This document shows, in pieces, positions 1,725 to 64,000 of a DNA stretch of 64,000 nt (positions are counted from its first letter, which is position 1; the number at the start of each line of letters is the position of its first letter). Location of the stretch: NCBI GenBank assembly GCA_026027325.1, contig JAMSLZ010000001.1:2914001-2978000 (forward strand). The letters are read 5' to 3'. A model generated the notes under the pieces. The model worked only from the letters and a program-made list of their open reading frames with translations, ran no database searches and was not told where the DNA came from. This DNA comes from Actinomucor elegans (Eukaryota > Mucoromycota > Mucoromycetes > Mucorales > Mucoraceae). The translations under genes and the position numbers were made by a program.

Positions 1725-3532
1725 TCATTCAAGTCGATCTTCAATGTCATGATTTGGAAAGCACTCAACGTAACAGCGAAGCCATGGTGTTTACGCTCCA
1801 ACTCTTGATCTGTATCGTCTTCCAAAATATTGGATACTTGAACACGTTTGATATCCAAATGACTAGACAAAAATCAATCAGCTCTTTCTATACAGATTAG
1901 CTCATGCCTTTTTTTTTTGTTACCTTTCCAAAATAGCACTTGATTTACCACCATAAGCTTCATACAAACGCAAAATAACTTGTTTACCTTTTCCATGGTC
2001 ATCCTCTGCAAGTTTGATTGTATCAATAATGATGTGGTGGGGAGGATCCATCTTAAACAAGGAAGGAATCATTTGTCCGCTTTGGATCTCTTTACCCTTG
2101 GCATGACTGAAAGAAAAGAGTTGCTTAGGTGATATGTTAGGTTATCACACTTTTTTTTTTACATACCGAATGGAAAGTGGAGTATTGAACTCTAGTGCCG
2201 ATTGCATGACATTGGAAGAAGTAAAGTTTCCTCTATGAGGATAGACTGCATACTTGAACTTGTGTTTACCTAGATTCATGTTTAGTCAAATAGATGGTAT
2301 GTATTGAACTTATTTTACCCATATCAGCATGCTCATCAGGTCCTTTAGGTGATCGCAAAAGTGACAAACGTTGCGTCTTTCCATAGGTTGCATAACCGTA
2401 TTTACAATCATTCATCAAAGCTATACCATAGTTGGATTCTGACAAATCTGCAAACTTGTGTCCACAAACCTAAAGCGAATAGTTGAATAAAGTGAACTTG
2501 ATTGTCTATGTATATAACATACCTCAAACTTGGCTGAATCAATAGTGGTATTGTAATGCGTAGGTCTTCTAACAACACCATATTGGATATCATAGGTAGC
2601 CTAGACACATCATTCTCGATAAGAAGGTCTTCCTTTATTTTCAATTAGATTACTTACATAGTCAGTAACGATATCCCAATTAAACTCTACTTTCTAAAGA
2701 CATGCATATCAGTAAAACATAATATTAATATGGAGGTGATAGTATTACTAGACACTGGTGGCTTTCGTGCCAATCAACAAGATTAGCAAACTCGAGACGT
2801 TCGCCAATGCATGTAAGGCTGATAGTTTGTTCAATTGAACTGACATCTGATATCTTGTGCTTGAATAAAAGTTCTGCCTTCAAAGGGCCCTCAGAGAGAA
2901 TCTACATATATAATGAATGATGTACTGCTTGTGCATTAAAATCAAGCCTTACCTCCAAGGTCTTTTGGCCCTCCAATTCAACGTATTTTTGCAAATGGTA
3001 GATCTCAACTATAGATATGTTCAAAATTTAATAAAAAACATGAGCACTGGTAATTAATACTTACTATCCCAAGCATCCCAATAAGTGGGCTATTAACCGT
3101 AAACATGTGAGCATCATCTCTTTATTTGCTTGCTTCTACTTACCACGTCCTCATAAAGTTGAAGAACATTGCCTCGCAAGTTTTCAGGAATGAGATTACC
3201 TCTATATGGAGTGTAAGTGGGAAAAAAAAGACGTGAAAAGTAGCTAGTTTTACGTGTACCTGTCAGACTTTTTGTCAATCAGTTCAATCAATTGACCATC
3301 GCTATTGAAAGTAGCTCTTAAGTTGTGATTTTCCAATACGTAGTGTCCAGTTTTTGTAGCATAAGCTATAAATAACGAGTTAGCCATTATTATTGTTCAT
3401 ACAGTTGTAGGTATACCTTGGACCGATTTTTCGCGTGCAACATGCTTGAAGTCATTAGATGATTCAACATAGCCTGATGCGCCCAATCCAGGTACATTTT
3501 CAACTATAGATTACAAATTTAGTATACCTAAT

Positions 3533-3567
<35 letters not shown>

Positions 3568-6020
3568 AAGAGATATTCATAATCTCCCTTATACTGTTGG
3601 TTGGCCCACTTAGTTTTTTTCTCTGGAGAAACAATGACTTCAGAACGTGTCCAAGGAAGCGTATTGAAAACAATTACACCCTGGCTATCATCCGGTAAGA
3701 CCGTGTTTGGGTTCAATTGATGAGCCCTTTCTGAAATCAAAAGTGACTGAGCTGTATGACGCAATAATGAACATTCGGTAATCACCTCGCGATGAAACTG
3801 TAGATACAATATCAGCCTGTTATATGCAATGTAAACGAATTGAAAAGCTCTTATACCTTGTGCACATCGACATAGGCTAAATTAATGGCTGAACCTGGTA
3901 AACAATCATGGAACTGATTAAGACAAAGAAGCTTCCATAAGCGCGTGATTTCATTAGCTGGATAGCTATATAGAGAAAAAAAAAGGTTATTTAATTTGCC
4001 TTCCTATTTGATAGAAATACACTAACCTATATGATTTGGAATAGAGTTTGGCAACTGTAGCAAGTAGCTCTACATCACGAATAATCACTTCTCCCTTTCG
4101 ATTGCCACTTTTGACAAGCGCTTGAGAAGTATAAGTACCACGATGAAACTCGAGATACTAAGGATATATCAGAAAATGTATGTACTGTGTTCATTAATGT
4201 ATAGTTACCAGCTCGCCTTTGTAGGATTGCAATCTTTCAGAATGCTCTGATAAACCCTCAAAAAAGTCCGTGGCACTACCGGGTTTGACAGTAGGAAGGC
4301 CATCCTACAAATGATACCAGACTAAGTCCATCAAGTATGTACCCATATTTGCTTACTTACCACATTTTTCATCCGCTTCAGCCTTTCCAGCATCTCGGGC
4401 GTTGGCCCTCCGCCACCATCCCCGTGTCTATATGCATAAGAGAAACCGTTTAGTAAATGTCAGTTGTCATATGTAATAGACATACCCAAAGACAAGCAAG
4501 CTCTCGTTGGAACTTTCGATGTCTCGATGATTTTTGGCGCTAACAAGAAATTGGTTCAGTATCTAGAGTTTGAGAGCATTTGTGAATTTAAATTATGTAT
4601 ATATACCATTTATACACTTCACTCGCTGTGACTGACGCAGTGTACCTATCATTAAAAAGTCAGAAGTAGCCAATTTTTCATGTTGATAAGAGTTTACGTC
4701 TCGGCAGGTGTCAAATGAGCCAAGATTCTCGTATCATCAATACCAGTCCACCAAAAAGTAGATAAAGGAAATTTGTTAATATTGTTCCATGATAGCTTTT
4801 GAGTAAAAAAGTAATCACAACCAGACTGACGAAGTACTTGTGGAAGTTGAGCAGAGTAGCCTATAAGCAGGGGATATCTCTATTACTACTTTTCTTTTTT
4901 ACATAGGTCTTTTTTTTTTTTTACATACCAAATGAATCAGGAAGCCAAAACACGCGAGTTCTTTTTCCAAAATGCTTTTCATAGAATCTTTGACTAGAGA
5001 AAAGTTATGAGTTATTTTTGCTTCGAAACTAGTATTATGCTTAAATACTTACCCTAGAAGCATCTGTCTGCAAAGAGATTCTCCAGACTATAACATAGTA
5101 AGTATTTAGACTCGATCATGTTAGAGATGCTTGCACTTACTGGCATATTGGTATCTATTTATCAGGACATATAACTTCATGAACATTTGCCTTTTATACA
5201 TATTTTTACTTTGGTTACTTACCATGCTCAACCCAGCTCTATGATATAAACACAAATGATGATGAATTACATTTAGTTCATATTATATTAAAAGAATTAT
5301 ATAGACACTCACTCCACCAATAATTTCCCATTGACCAGTTTTTTCAGCATTTTTAATCTTCTCAAACAGCTTTGGATACAGTTCTTCTAGCCATTCATAC
5401 TGCTGTACTTGAGATCCAGTAAATACGTACCCGGGATATCTCTCAATCAAGTTCAATTGACTGGACCAAGATCTAGCTATTTTGCGCTTGGTCTCATCGT
5501 ACGGCCAGAGCCATGCCGTATCGATATGGCAATTACCTACCGCCGTTACTTGATGCTGACTCGCACCATTCTTGTCACTTAGAAACGTGTGCGTCAGCTT
5601 TAGGCAGGCTTCAATGGCTTCTGGATCATCTCCAATAAAGTGATTAATGACTTCGTTAGCTACCCAAAGCGCCTTGCGAGCACGAGAAGAATCCTGATCT
5701 GTATCGTAGGCAATACCACGGACAATGCTATATATAAAAGAAATAAAGGTTCATATACATATACATTGTATATTATTGATCAATACTTGCGATAAATCAT
5801 GATAAAGTTTTTGGATGGGCTCATTAGGTACTACCAGGTCTGCACGAGAAAGGTTAAAATAACGGTCGGGGTCTGCTACCATTGAATCATTAGCGCCTAC
5901 ACCGAACATGCCGTTACAGGCTGCTTCAATATAAAGCTCGAATGATTCTCCAGCAGATGCCCTGTTTGTGACAATGTATTCATGACGCGATTGATCCGCT
6001 AAAATAAAAAATAGAAGTTA

Positions 6021-48823: not shown

Positions 48824-49883
48824 ACAACCCCTTCCAGTGCAAAGGATCCGTTTACGATTACCTTTAAATCTGATCAAAATTATAGTTTCATTGCAAATAC
48901 ACGTAGATTACAAGTATCAGACGCGTCATGATCAGATTTCTGAATCTTTGTGCACACAAGTCATTCATGTTTATATACAAAAGCAGCCAAGATTACTTAT
49001 GTTCTGAGTGAAATTCAAAAAAATCATTACACTCGAGTATGTATATGCTAATATGAGATACGTCAAGATTTCAGTGACATTTCCTGTTTCCGGAGTGCAT
49101 AAGCTAGAATACGAAATTAAACTTGTATCTATCGAAATATATTAGCCCTTGTTCACTACTGATAAATAGAGTAATTAAAGAATCGGTAGTTAAACCATGA
49201 TTATTATATACCTAGTAACTTATTCTGAGTATGCACTAATAATAAAATGCAACACTGAATTAAAATCGGTCGAATATCTATATAAAATGTATATAGTTTG
49301 CCACCAACTATTGAAGTCGAATGCACTCATTATACCTCACTACAGTAAAAATTCTAGAGGGTACAGCGATTCATACTGAATGCACACTAGTCTTTAAATG
49401 TGATATTAAACTAGAATTGGTTGGGCAATGTAGAGAGACTAAAGTAGGCTGATATAAGAAAAAAAATGCTCTAGAATAAGTAGTCTTCGGGCCTAAACTT
49501 TCATTTTTTTTTACGCCACTTGATAAGCCATTTCAATCATATATAAATTACGCTAGTATACTCTTTATATAAGAGAGATGCTTTGCTATTAAAAACAATA
49601 TTAGAGTCCATAAAAATCGATAAAATCTTATAGTAAGATATTTTTAATTTTGAGCAATATTGAAGGCATTTAAAGTTTATATTGACGACTTGTTGGTTGA
49701 CCACTCTTCCGAAATTATTGGTATACTTTTGAGAAAATAACATGCCAAAAAAAAAAATGCATAAATGAATGTTAGTAGACAAGATATCGAAATATTTAAA
49801 TTCAATGATAATATATCGATAATTGTATTGGGTATTTGAGTGAATTTTGGGTAAAACTCCCCTTGCTCATGTTCTCCAGATTT
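48824..49883. other. Intergenic, about 1.1 kb, AT-rich
   Basis: No gene recognised. Around 49060 there is a 25-base match (ACGTCAAGATTTCAGTGACA and following) to the degenerate repeat at 51714-52015, indicating old dispersed repeat sequence. Confidence 0.45.
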
Positions 49884-50850
49884 TCATCTTTTTCGTCTTG
49901 TTGGATCTATTCTTTGCGCCCCAGCACACTGAAACCTCTCAGGTATTTTTTTATCCAAGCGGTGGTTGCGTACAATATGAATTGTATTTAGGTATGCTGC
50001 TAAATTCCGATTACATAAATGCTTGCAAACTCCTTCAACGCTTGAACTAGTTCTCGTGGTCACTTTATAATCTTAATTTGTGCATCTAAGGGATAAAAAA
50101 AAAGTTAGCAAACAATTCTAATAGTTATTAATTAGAATATTTGATTATCTAAGTAAACCATAGCAGATAACATTAGGATTATTTTGTATTTGATGTGGTC
50201 GTGGATTCGGTGTTCTTTTGAAAGTTATAAGACTATGCTATTCGCAAGAGGAGCAGCACTAATTTGCTGTAAACTAGTCAATCAAATACGCTAAAAATAT
50301 ATGTCTCCTCAGCAACCAGCTGAATCCGATGCCTCGCACGGGTTCTTGTTACTTGGTATTTGGCGCGGAATAGTTGCCCATAACAAAAACAATACTGTTT
50401 CCAAAATTCCTTTTCAGTATGGCGGCCATGTCTTCGCTGGCTTTTTGTCTTCTAGTGTACATTGACAGCTTCAATTTTCAATGAAGGAGATGCATAATCA
50501 AATGATTAGATGTAGCTTCAGTATAGTATTTTTTTAGCAACCCAGTGGCCAATATTTTTTCCACGTTGCTGAGCATTAAGAACCGTTATATAAGGCGCGA
50601 GTTTTTTGGAAATAGTATCTTGAAGATCAGTGTATCGATGTTTCCTATCTTGTCTTTTTTTGAGCATTATGACATCCATACCATTCGTTTGGATTATTCC
50701 ACGAAACGAGAGCATACTGAGCTTTTGAGGTCTCAAAACTGCAGAATTGATGTTAACCACCTCGTCCCAGAGTTCCATTTTATCGACACCATTAATCCAT
50801 TCGCGGTCAAGGATATTTTGATAGAGAATTCACTGTGAATTGTTGCATAG
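49884..50850 (-). pseudogene. Decayed Fanzor (TnpB-like, OMEGA) nuclease
   Basis: Read on the minus strand, from high to low coordinates. NILDREWINGVDKMELWDEV then NINSAVLRPQKL and FRGIIQTNGMDV (50815-50650) correspond to the conserved Fanzor block before the RuvC domain (..S.IQTDG.). After an internal deletion follow NFGNSIVFVMGNYSAPNTK and EPVRGIGFSWLLRRH (about 50415-50295; typically GNWS....K..P..G...LL), then YLID-x-FTAN-x-CCSSC (50290-50235; zinc-finger region after the L-x-D-E motif), and KHLCNRNLAAYLNTIHIV (50040-49990), where the last RuvC motif NRDxNA reads NRN, losing the Asp. It ends PERFQCAGAQRIDPTRRKR with TGA at 49884-49886. In-frame stops, at least two frame changes and loss of RuvC-I/II show it is inactive. 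Confidence 0.75.
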
Positions 50851-50879
50851 CCAGGTACATGTGATATTGGATCTTGGAT

Positions 50880-51240
50880 TAAAAAAGAGGTACATAGTTT
50901 GAGGAGCGTTTGAAGACAGTATAACGCATATTGTTTAGAGAGGTGATGGTATTGGCAATGGCATTGTCGAGGGGACCCTCCAGATAGCCAACCCAGCCGC
51001 CAGTGAATGCAGCAGCTGCGCTCAATGAGTGCCATTGGTAACCAGGGTATTGGACCGATACATAAAGTTGGTTAGCAAAAGGAGAGGAGAGAGTATCACC
51101 TTGATTTCTTTAGCCAGCAACACTCATGAAAGCTACAGCACGGGTATAATTTGGAGGAGAATTCAATTGATATTCCAATGTCATTATTACTACATCAAGA
51201 CCATATATTTGTTTATAGTATTCCATCTAATTACTATCAA
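50880..51240 (-). pseudogene. Unidentified coding fragment upstream of the Fanzor relic
   Basis: A minus-strand frame reads MEYYKQIYGLDVV, NSPPNYTRAVAFMSVAG, one stop, then SSPFANQLYVSVQYPGYQWH, SLSAAAAFTGGWVGYLEGPL and DNAIANTITSLNNMRYTVFK before a stop near 50880. Codon use and GC are higher than the surrounding sequence, so it was recently or is partly under coding constraint. No family is recognised, and it is not a block I know from Fanzor proteins. It may be a host gene piece next to or carried by the element. Confidence 0.35.
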
Positions 51241-51713
51241 TAGCTGCGCCATATGCATTTTTTTTTTTCATTTTATTATATTTTGAAAAGATAAGAGAAA
51301 ACAAATAATAATAAAAAAGTTAAAAACCAAAGTGAGTTTGTATGAGAGATAAGTTTAATTCATATTACAATCCACTACTATGGAAAAAAGAATGTATGTT
51401 CTTCAAGTTAAGCTTATACTATGTTTTTTAACCCTACCTGAAGAAACGTTCTTCTCTTGATTTCTATCGTTCTTAAAATGTGTTGCTGGACCCTTTTGGA
51501 GCTTTTTTTTTTAGCTGCAGTACAATGAATGCGTTGCGCTTAAGCCTGATTAAAAGTAAACTGTGTATATATTCTACAGTAATATTTCTATAAATTCTGT
51601 ATACAACTAAAACATTAAGTTAAATTACGTCTATTACGCTTGGGATCTTTTTTTGTATCTGTAATTAGACCCAATTTGAAACGATTATGACATGAAGAGC
51701 AATCATCTAACCA

Positions 51714-52015
51714 AACAAGTCAAAATCTCGGTGGAATTATCAAATTTACCTGTACATAAGCTGCTGTTCTCCAATTACAAAGGAGTCTATCGAAACAAAG
51801 CTTATTCTAACCGAGATTCTAAAGATGATTAAAGCAAAAGTAATCATTACACCCGACACGTCAAGATCTCGGTGGAATTCCCAAATCTCCGTGTAAAAAA
51901 AAAGGCCTCTGCAATCCAAATTCAAAAAGCTGCCTTCATTCTGTCCGAAATTATAAAAAGATCCTCTAGCCAGAATTGACAATTAGTATCAGTCAAGTAA
52001 AGATCCCGGTTGGAT
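51714..52015. repeat. Degenerate direct repeat, three copies about 140 bp apart
   Basis: Copies begin near 51716, 51858 and 51995 and share a core like GTCAAGATCTCGGTGGAATT followed by CCCAAATCTCC-like sequence. Copy spacing is about 135-145 bp. A fourth diverged copy lies near 49058. Confidence 0.5.
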
Positions 52016-52172
52016 TTCTAAATCTCAAACTTTAAAGCTATCAAACAGTTGATTATGAAAGGACTTTTTTATTGGTCTCGCCCAAATTTAAATCGGTTAT
52101 GATCTCTTTTAAATAGGCTTTGTTTCTTGTTTGCTCTCTTTTTTTTTTCTTTATATTTCAAACATAAACAAA

Positions 52173-53855
52173 ATGATGGATCCACAATCTAATTTCAAAA
52201 CTAATCACGGTCAATTTCCGACAGAACTGTTGCTCTCTATATTCATTTACATCGACGGGCTCACCTTGACTTCCTGCAAACAAGTCTGTCGACATTGGTC
52301 CCAAGTCATTACACACTATGACGATTTGATTTGGTCCAATGCTTGCCACCGAGATTTTGAGCCAAAAAGCCGTCGATTCTGGTCTTTGCAGTTCCCACCA
52401 CCTGTTCGCAAGCGGCAATGGCAAGACATGTACCGTATTACCAAGAACTGGTACAATGGTTATGCTAAAGGCAACTACATTACTGTGAAACCTACCTCTG
52501 ATTTAGAAGCATGCACTGTCATTGGTACACCGCAAGAGCAAGGCTTATACACAACGTTAACATTGGCTCATGATGGCCGAGTGATACGATCCAATCCAAA
52601 CTATAACAGTAGGATACAACAGCATCAGCAGCAGCAGCAGCGCCAGCAGCGTCAGAGCTTAATGGTTCAATCTCCGTTATCACCACAGCAAAAATTCTTT
52701 TTAGATGCATCAAGCAATCACCTTGCCAGGTGGACAGCTGATGATGCCACCAATTCGCTTTCTATCGTGTGTCATTATACAGATCCATCTTCCAAATGGT
52801 TAGTGACGGGTGGATTGAATGGTGCTGTATCCGTATGGGATTTAGAAACAAAAACATTGGTGAGGGTGTGGCATGGACACCGAGGAAGAGTTTTATGTAT
52901 CAATATGAATAATGAAGGCAAGTCCATAGTATTAAAAAGACTATACTAGTCAACTGAACGTATATTAGTGGTAGTAAGTGGCGGCTCAGATAGTATGATT
53001 CGCGTCTGGGATCTAGACAAAGGCTCAGATGTTCATGCTCGTAAATCTAGAAGACGTGGTATGATAGATATTTCGGTTTATTTATCAGGAAGAAGCGACT
53101 GGTATCAAGGTGTGGGTGAAATTGCAGTAAATGGTCATTTAGTTGCTTGTGCTCCAGATGCCTCTGGTCCTATTCTCGTATTCTCACTCTTAACAGGTTC
53201 ACTTGTCTATGAACTACGTATTCCCGAAGATCCTTTACCAGTCAATGGCAGTGAATGGATGGCAGAGGAAATGACAGCGTTCACACATTTACGTTTAACA
53301 CCCTTCTTTCTACTGACAAAAGGCAAAGTTCATAACAACAACAAATCCATAAAACTCGTGCCTTCTACGCATAATATTGTGATGCAACGACGTCAAGAGC
53401 GCAAGCAAGCTGGCTATATAGCTCACTCAGATGATTACACTGTCAGCGCACCACCACAAGCTGTAGCCCAAATGACACCGTATCAACTATACCAATATTA
53501 CCAAACTGTAAACGCATCTCGTGAAGAACCTCCTGCCATGGTGCCTGAATCAAGTGCTTGTATTCACGTCTGGGACCTGCAAACAGGAAAAATCGCGTAC
53601 AGTCTCGTACCTACCTTAGAAAAGCCTTACCAGCATTATACCATTACGGATGTACGTGTAACACCTGATTACTCTAAAGTATTCGCATCAATTGAAATGC
53701 GTGGACAAAGAGAATATGGAGAAACACTGTATTGCTGGGATTTTGCTTCAAGAAGCACTGATGAAGTTTCTAAAGACGAATTTGATATCGTGCAGTTGGA
53801 TGATGTCGACTCTGACTTGAGAAAGTTGGGCAGATCCTGGGTTTGTTTCATGTAG
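52173..53855 (+). CDS. F-box/WD40-repeat protein
   Basis: 543 residues from exons 52173-52917 and 52969-53855. The F-box is at residues about 13-55 (FPTELLLSIFIYIDGLTLTS, CKQVCRHWSQV), followed by Q-rich disorder (QQHQQQQQRQQRQ) and WD repeats (WLVTGGLNGAVSVWDLETK; VVSGGSDSMIRVWDLDKG; CIHVWDLQTGKI; LYCWDF). This layout is that of SCF ubiquitin-ligase substrate receptors (Skp1-binding F-box, substrate-binding propeller). Only four or five blades are clear, so some are divergent. The single intron (52918-52968) starts GCAAGT and ends AG; the GC-AG form is required by reading frame. Start is the first of two adjacent ATGs. Confidence 0.88.
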
Positions 53856-62619: not shown

Positions 62620-64000
62620 TATGAATGAAATAGGAGTGTTACATTAATCACTACAAATCCTCGGTCATTTATATTTTTTAGCTTCCTTTTTTTTTTCCAA
62701 CAAAAGACAGGCATTATACAAAATCTGCTAAATATGGTTATTTAGTGATTTGATAATCATAACTGACAGGTACTTTCCACCAATAAGGATAGCCGGCAAA
62801 ACCATTTTTTCGTATTAAAACAGGCGGTAAAACCGAATCTGACGTCTGTTTATGAGAGAAGCATTTTCATTGAAAGATCATCTCTACAGCCCCTGCACTT
62901 CAGAAACAAAATTTGGCACTTGTCATGTTCTTACAATCAGTAATAACTAGCTAATTGAACTCGTTATAGGAAGTTTATCGCTCTAGTGAGCCTTTTAACC
63001 TAATTATATGTAGTGAATGATCGGTATGTAACTGGAGGGCAACCGCAATACTTACGATGGGTCACTCAAATGTTTAATTAACATACAAGTCTCCTATTTT
63101 CAATTCTATTCTTTGCAGAGATTGTACTAGCAGAAATAAACTGACCAAATCAGATTTAAGTCTCAGTTCTTCTTTATTCGACTCTAATTTAATATATAGA
63201 AGCATCGATACACAAAAACATATTAACATTTATAAAGCCCGTTCGTGTATCAAATAGCAGCGTAAAGATCTTTAAGATTATAGTATTCTTTGGCAAAACA
63301 TAGATAGGTGTTCTACTTTTATTTTACAACAATAGACCAAATTTTATACATATAAATAATACAATAGAGAAGCAGACGGGTACTTTAAATTAGTAACATA
63401 ATCCCTTTATGAGTAATGCCTCTAAAGTATCTTTTTTTTAATACCCTATTTCCGGAATTTATTTGTTCACAAAAAAAGATACAAAGTTAGTATGATACCA
63501 ACTATTAGTACCACCATTATGTCATTACTTCTATCTTCATTGGATATTGAGAATTAAATCGAATTCCACCACAGATTGTACGATAATCAGTCTATATTGA
63601 AAAACATTGTTCGTATTTAATGCTAGATATACAGTAATTCCAGTAAAATATATACATATACTCTTGACTGTGTATAGTTTACTTTATTGACGTGCTTTAG
63701 AAAATTTATATTTATACTCCAAAAGAAAAAGACCGATTTGCCAACTTGGGTTTAGGAGTAACTCCTTAAGGATATTTCAAAACGAGGCCATTTTTAACAT
63801 CTGTATTTTTCTCAAATGGTTCCAATTTAATGTCGCATCTGAAGGCCCATCCATGTTTAGCGTGAACTACTGCGCTCACTAGAACTACTAGTTAGCTAAA
63901 ATATTATAATTTTATTAAAGCTAAGCGGTTTGCTGCAAAATGTATACATTATAAGTATATAAGTTAATTCTAACGTCTGAATTTGATCAATGGTTTAATG
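62620..64000. other. AT-rich right end, no gene recognised
   Basis: 1.4 kb with many short A/T runs and no open frame of coding character on either strand. It likely contains the P450 promoter on the left. Confidence 0.55.

Follow-up and report, generated by a model that had tools for sequence, protein, structure and literature searches.

Remains of a Fanzor1 gene, very probably from close to the right-hand end of a non-autonomous DNA transposon, and its broken relatives in the same genome

Five short protein blocks lie close together on the minus strand of the window, by which we mean the whole 64,000-nucleotide stretch of DNA analysed here, and they raise the question of which gene left them, how it died, and what had carried it. 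The original prediction read them as a decayed Fanzor. With high confidence, we take the locus to be a dead, 5'-truncated Fanzor1 gene, nearest to PpFz1 of Parasitella parasitica, which belonged to a non-autonomous DNA transposon and lay close to its right end. Fanzor1, a transposon-carried RNA-guided DNA cutter, is already known from other fungi, and the window on its own is an ordinary transposon fossil. What the comparison of copies adds is a graveyard of 14 broken Fanzor1 copies in one genome and, new from that comparison, right ends that are alike across three groups of copies. The features of the window copy are as follows.

50518 to 50829, minus strand: Fanzor1 relic before RuvC-I, open over 103 amino acids (PpFz1 residues 801-857, E 0.15; C21 locus, E 3.8e-13); at its end it runs over the deletion junction near 50555
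50537 to 50560, minus strand: place of the absent RuvC-I segment, about 240 bp short compared with the C21 locus (L024), the flanking blocks being contiguous, by eye
50326 to 50551, minus strand: RuvC part of the Fanzor1 relic, with NFGNSIVFVMGNYSAPNTK (PpFz1 residues 1114-1139, E 0.043; 74% DNA identity to L026 over 226 bp; C21 locus, E 4.8e-11)
50274 to 50276, minus strand: TAG in place of the Glu of YLIDEF, which is Glu in PpFz1, L056 and L026
50160 to 50273, minus strand: initial half of the TNB zinc ribbon together with the sequence after it (CCSSC to NPRPHQIQNNPNVICYGLLR), with two more stops, from by-eye comparison with PpFz1 alignments
50086 to 50159, minus strand: probable intron remnant, limits approximate, from an alignment of eight copies (AG acceptor kept, donor AT)
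49884 to 50085, minus strand: putative last exon with CTN-stop-DY, NRN and the C-terminus (68% DNA identity to L026 over 475 bp spanning 50290-49817)
49703 to 49883, minus strand: 3' non-coding stretch reaching the element's right end (CCAATAATTTCGGAAGAGT), where the homology to L026 stops; the end motif ranks first of 14,958

All five blocks were located on the minus strand in the TnpB-type order that had been claimed for them. FRGIIQTNGMDV falls inside the 103-residue open stretch, NFGNSIVFVMGNYSAPNTK inside an open piece of 42 residues (50477-50352), and QEPVRGIGFSWLLRRHIFLAYLID in 50348-50274, after which comes a stop; CCSSC follows two stops, and LCNRNLAAYLN lies within 50072-49884. When the pieces were compared with the PDB (177,635 sequences), the best match of the 103-residue piece (50829-50518) was PpFz1 (9cf0) at construct residues 801-857, and 9cf0 was again at the top for the 42-residue piece, at residues 1114-1139, with E-values (0.15 and 0.043) that are weak taken alone. 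PpFz1 ranked first for two of the four Fanzor pieces of the window compared in this way, with the same block order, while 49884-50072 and 50277-50348 returned unrelated chains only (E 1.5 and E 2.6). None of seven window pieces reached a Pfam cut-off, one of them having two weak unrelated matches (E 0.022 and 0.085), and a genome-wide search with the PF07282 profile at a threshold of 0.001 gave nothing, the same profile being positive in 6 of 14 control genomes. The 103-residue piece had no match among 5.8 billion proteins, and the sole match of a piece of locus L002 in a large protein database was a 110-residue protein identical to part of that piece.

The firm link is provided by better-kept relatives in the same genome. 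The 103-residue piece matches the C21 locus at E 3.8e-13 and the C24 locus at E 1.3e-7. A 165-residue open piece of the C21 locus, which carries VTIDPGRRN and VFVMGNYSAPN, matches PpFz1 in the PDB at E 1.5e-13, and in the reverse search it recovers 50298-50531 of the window at E 4.8e-11. Other relic pieces reach PpFz1 as well, from C21 (E 9.8e-5), C11 (E 2.3e-11) and C24 (E 8.7e-9). Because these relatives bridge the two, the window copy is firmly tied to PpFz1, and the Fanzor reading of the original prediction was right; homology to Fanzor1 is present in order across the RuvC and TNB parts, and by its nearest match the copy is a Fanzor1.

The window copy is dead, as had been said of it: the RuvC-I segment is gone, a Glu codon has become TAG, there are further stops, and the 5' half is lost. 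The RuvC-I segment, with its IDPG-type motif, was correctly described as missing. It is absent at about 50555, where the window runs directly into the next block; in L024, VTIDPGRRN sits between two blocks that are contiguous in the window, which is some 240 bp shorter at this point, the size and the place of the gap being by-eye estimates. The IDPG motif is kept in the C21, C24 and C2 relics (L024, L025 and L063), and from 50551 onward the window can be aligned with its nearest copy, L026. RuvC-II, on the other hand, had been called missing and is not, since its place exists and its Glu position aligns to the TAG at 50276-50274 (minus strand), which occupies the Glu place of YLIDEF; the Glu is kept in PpFz1, in the C11 copy (L056) and in L026. 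We take this Glu to be the catalytic one on the description given in the available text of PMC11423790. Further in-frame stops start at 50351, 50261 and 50240. The zinc ribbon, of C4 type in Fanzor1, retains its first CxxC after the stops, and its second pair reads CTN-stop-DY, with one Cys lost.

Two other grounds for calling the element dead need to be qualified. The last catalytic Asp does read Asn, as noted originally, the third catalytic place being NRN in the window and in the C11 copy, and NRD, NCD or N-stop-D in L041, L027 and L026. However, the Asn is no sign of death, because GtFz1 cuts DNA with Asn at its last catalytic position and SpuFz1 D606N is more active than the unmutated protein, both according to the available text of PMC11423790. 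Similarly, the stops and changes of frame are present, but one apparent frameshift is probably the remnant of an intron, so that the gene would once have been spliced. In the stretch between VICYGLLR and CTN, aligned over eight copies, an acceptor AG directly ahead of the CTN-type codons is kept in six and the donor GTAT in four; the window keeps its acceptor AG and reads AT at the donor position. The decay is old, since the window and L026 are 68-74% identical in DNA, at a Jukes-Cantor distance of 0.32-0.42.

Are there living copies elsewhere? The original prediction proposed a search of the same genome for intact copies, and none was found in protein searches of its 36.5 Mb and 27 contigs, in which only the best candidates are scored and introns split the matches; 14 broken relics, the window included, were found instead. 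They lie on C1 at 2.96, 1.89, 4.38, 4.68, 1.72 and 2.09 Mb, on C2, twice on C4, and on C5, C11, C21, C24 and C25. Each of the 13 further loci is tied to another relic by DNA similarity, which was the rule for counting it; several are weak by protein search alone (E up to 0.588 and 0.284), and L026 was detected through its DNA match only. Three groups can be distinguished: group A consists of the window and L026, with L024, L055 and L034 more distant; group B of L027, L057, L025, L059, L062 and L058; and group C of L056, L060 and L063. Within group A, L026 gives two DNA matches to the window in the same order (E 8.9e-32 and 1.8e-14). Against the size yardstick of the PpFz1-MBP fusion, 1259 residues, the longest open stretch in the 14 relic spans as set is at most 165 amino acids, and the open-frame figures of the genome search go up to 206. 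A locus on C3 (L061, E 0.126) was dropped because no other relic matched it at the DNA level; C12:739056 (E 0.0999) was left out of the count, as were L028-L033, which share the upstream repeat only.

The upstream repeat abuts the relic at 50858-51089 on the minus strand and is dispersed, with 70-77% identity to places on C12, C4, C1 and C3 and with copies at L028, L029, L030 and L032. Its open reading frame pieces, such as FTGGWVGYLEG, were considered as the N-terminus of the Fanzor and rejected, since the stretch acts as a separate repeat; it matches nothing in Pfam, and nothing in the PDB at an E-value under 3.5. A phospholipase B-like gene was also considered at this place and dropped for want of a match, although the control genomes were silent too, so little is shown by it. 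By eye only, a SKIQY stretch of the repeat resembles the SKI.NY of PpFz1, and on that likeness the upstream stretch may hold a Fanzor N-terminus. Other repeats are seen in the vicinity: 51081-51198 (minus strand) is 82% identical to a place on C22, and a 60-bp direct repeat at 77% identity lies upstream of the relic (51695-51754 and 51836-51895, minus strand). L029 and L027 carry inverted repeats. The open frame adjoining the relic, 52113-52949 on the plus strand, carries an F-box-like domain at E 2.2e-9, and WD40-type domains match it less strongly.

On its other side, the similarity between the window and L026 extends beyond the reading frame and ends at 49703, on CCAATAATTTCGGAAGAGT. The pairs L027/L057, L057/L059, L027/L059 and L056/L060 end at the same kind of motif, and the L025 pairs end close to it, not on it. 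Judged from these alignments, a right end of similar kind is found in all three groups, that of the window copy being at 49703; aligning copies does locate an element end, as originally suggested. With a profile built without the tested group, the true end site ranked first of 14,958 positions in six of seven loci and second in L056, the seven sites having been picked after the homology ends were known. Per 100 Markov resamples of 1.7 kb, the score was reached 3 times for the window, 6 for L026, 4 for L027, 18 for L056, and never for L057, L059 or L060. In the other seven of the 14 relic loci, no site at the expected position was among the three best places; in L025 a diverged motif can be made out by eye. 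The right end of the window copy is not followed by a clean TA, and a search for the left end of this copy found none. Beyond both right ends, 57 bp (49380-49436, minus strand) are 81% identical to the flank of L027 (L027 5136-5190); 49460-49180, searched in the genome, gave just one other short match.

The flanks had also been expected to hold the old omegaRNA scaffold along with the ends, and here only the right end came to light. The predicted fold of the 181 nt after the reading frame (49883-49703) is no more stable than that of shuffled sequence (z +0.58; 143 of 200 shuffles equal or exceed its stability), and the seven aligned right ends have no consensus base pair. In SpuFz1, according to the available text of PMC10432273, the scaffold is about 75 nt long, extends across the 3' inverted repeat and is similar to the region from the stop codon to the repeat. 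Since neither fold nor consensus pairs give a signal, a scaffold at 49883-49703 is a position by analogy, not a finding. As is established for Fanzor1, the live protein would have bound an omegaRNA that came from the element's 3' part, cutting guide-matching DNA beside a short motif; its gene, spliced and situated towards the right-hand side of a non-autonomous DNA transposon, would have been followed by an omegaRNA ending at that right end.

What kind of transposon was it? A pattern taken from the Fanzor right ends and allowed at most two mismatches finds 19 places, versus 5 for a reversed control, with the limits that three group B ends fit without mismatch by construction and that eight places have one identical word. 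Among these places, two pairs are the ends of a 1714-bp element, L064 (C12:1340960-1342673), which is intact, with inverted repeats of about 134 bp at 94% and a 450-residue stop-to-stop frame that matches DDE_3 at 7e-28. From its DDE_3 match and the TA at its ends, we take L064 to be Tc1/mariner-like. A second full-length copy lies at C22:2057525-2059238 (100%, rounded), the remaining matches being partial (68-100%), and the two full-length DDE_3 transposons are apparently recent.

The first 28 bases of L064 are matched at 24 positions by the left end of L057, at 23 by its right end, at 23 by the right end of L027 and at 25 by that of L059; the highest-scoring places of six control loci come to 17-19. 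These are four ends in three of the six group B loci, and L057 is so far alone in having both mariner-like ends; the left end of L025 reaches 19 of 28, and L058 and L062 have none at the expected place. Because these ends match the L064 terminal repeat above controls, part of group B can be regarded as non-autonomous mariner-type passengers, and mariner-type transposons probably carried these Fanzors. The window copy's right end (18 of 28) and the ends of L056 and L060 (17 of 28) are at background level; in L026 the four best places do not include the end, and a 20 of 28 match in L055 lies where no end would be expected. The L064 transposase gives one match only in the relic stretches searched, in L062, outside the Fanzor part. 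Mariner-type ends on the window's own copy would follow from the shared end motif only, and it is by this route that a mariner-type, DDE_3-like transposase may have moved its element. Elsewhere in the window, position 63442 (plus strand) matches the left terminal repeat of L064 at 23 of 28; in the 2.4 kb beyond it the transposase finds no match and no right end rises above background.

A wider proposal can be offered tentatively, and we consider it doubtful as a whole: that all three Fanzor1 groups sat on mariner-type transposons, that the terminal inverted repeat served both as transposase site and as omegaRNA end, and that every Fanzor died, a mariner-like element with comparable ends remaining intact. 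If true, this would be a genome where the carrier outlived its RNA-guided passenger, and it opens the question of whether Fanzor1 was dependent on, or outlived by, its mariner-type carrier.

The rival that survives best, improbable in our view, has a MuDR-type element with long inverted repeats as the carrier, not Tc1/mariner. It draws on L026, the nearest copy, which lies between inverted repeats about 430 bp long (2680-3111 and 4952-5370) with 73% identity, and on three MuDr-type Fanzor1 families described in the available text of PMC3627910 from Mucor, Rhizopus and Phycomyces. However, the right-hand repeat of L026 begins about 400 bp outside the right end common to it and the window, the repeats have no match in window 49000-52500 and just two, both short, in the rest of the genome, and inspection of L026 by eye shows no 9-bp duplication. 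Lying outside the right end, these repeats possibly belong to a second, nested carrier.

The identity of the protein leaves less room for doubt. A relic of TnpB, of a Cas12f-like protein, of Fanzor2 or of another RuvC protein is very unlikely: Fanzor and TnpB do share the zinc ribbon and the RD motif, and a zinc piece of the C24 copy has a weak Cas12f1-like_TNB match (E 0.0035, below cut-off), but PpFz1 comes first for all four relic pieces having a significant PDB match, and SpuFz1, also a Fanzor1, appears once, for the C21 piece, at just 0.67. Chance resemblance in AT-rich non-coding DNA, for which weak single-piece E-values and the many stops might speak, has practically no probability left and is refuted by the reciprocal C21 matches and the two ordered DNA matches to L026.

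The comparison with known systems begins with PpFz1 (PDB 9cf0-9cf3), which has the same block order from before RuvC-I to the zinc ribbon and whose YLIDEF Glu motif and NPRPH stretch align via the C11 and C24 relatives. Unlike PpFz1, the window copy is without RuvC-I, the N-terminal half and the Glu, and the C21 relative is without most of construct residues 972 to 1114, a segment which presumably holds the FRI insertion. The families of Mucor circinelloides, Rhizopus oryzae and Phycomyces blakesleeanus (Bao and Jurka 2013, PMC3627910, in its available text) are likewise Fanzor1 in fungal DNA transposons; compared by description, MCi-4, ROr-4 and PBl-3 are MuDr-type, whereas group B here has mariner-type ends. 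The same text also places Fanzor1 in Mariner elements (PGv-1, PUl-1, PUl-4, HMa-1) and describes Fanzor1-only elements with Mariner TIRs and TA duplications (PUl-4); by prefix, the hosts of these are Pythium, Hydra and, on our reading of PGv, a virus, in contrast to the presumed fungus here, where no intact copy was found. No other mariner-type Fanzor1 in such fungi appeared among the matches listed in open-licence literature, by title and start of abstract. In Spizellomyces punctatus, the available text of PMC10432273 reports 19 full-length genes among 42 Spu-1 loci and demonstrated omegaRNAs, as against no intact copy found here; in SpuFz1, as in the window, the Fanzor1 gene is followed by a short non-coding part that runs to the right end.
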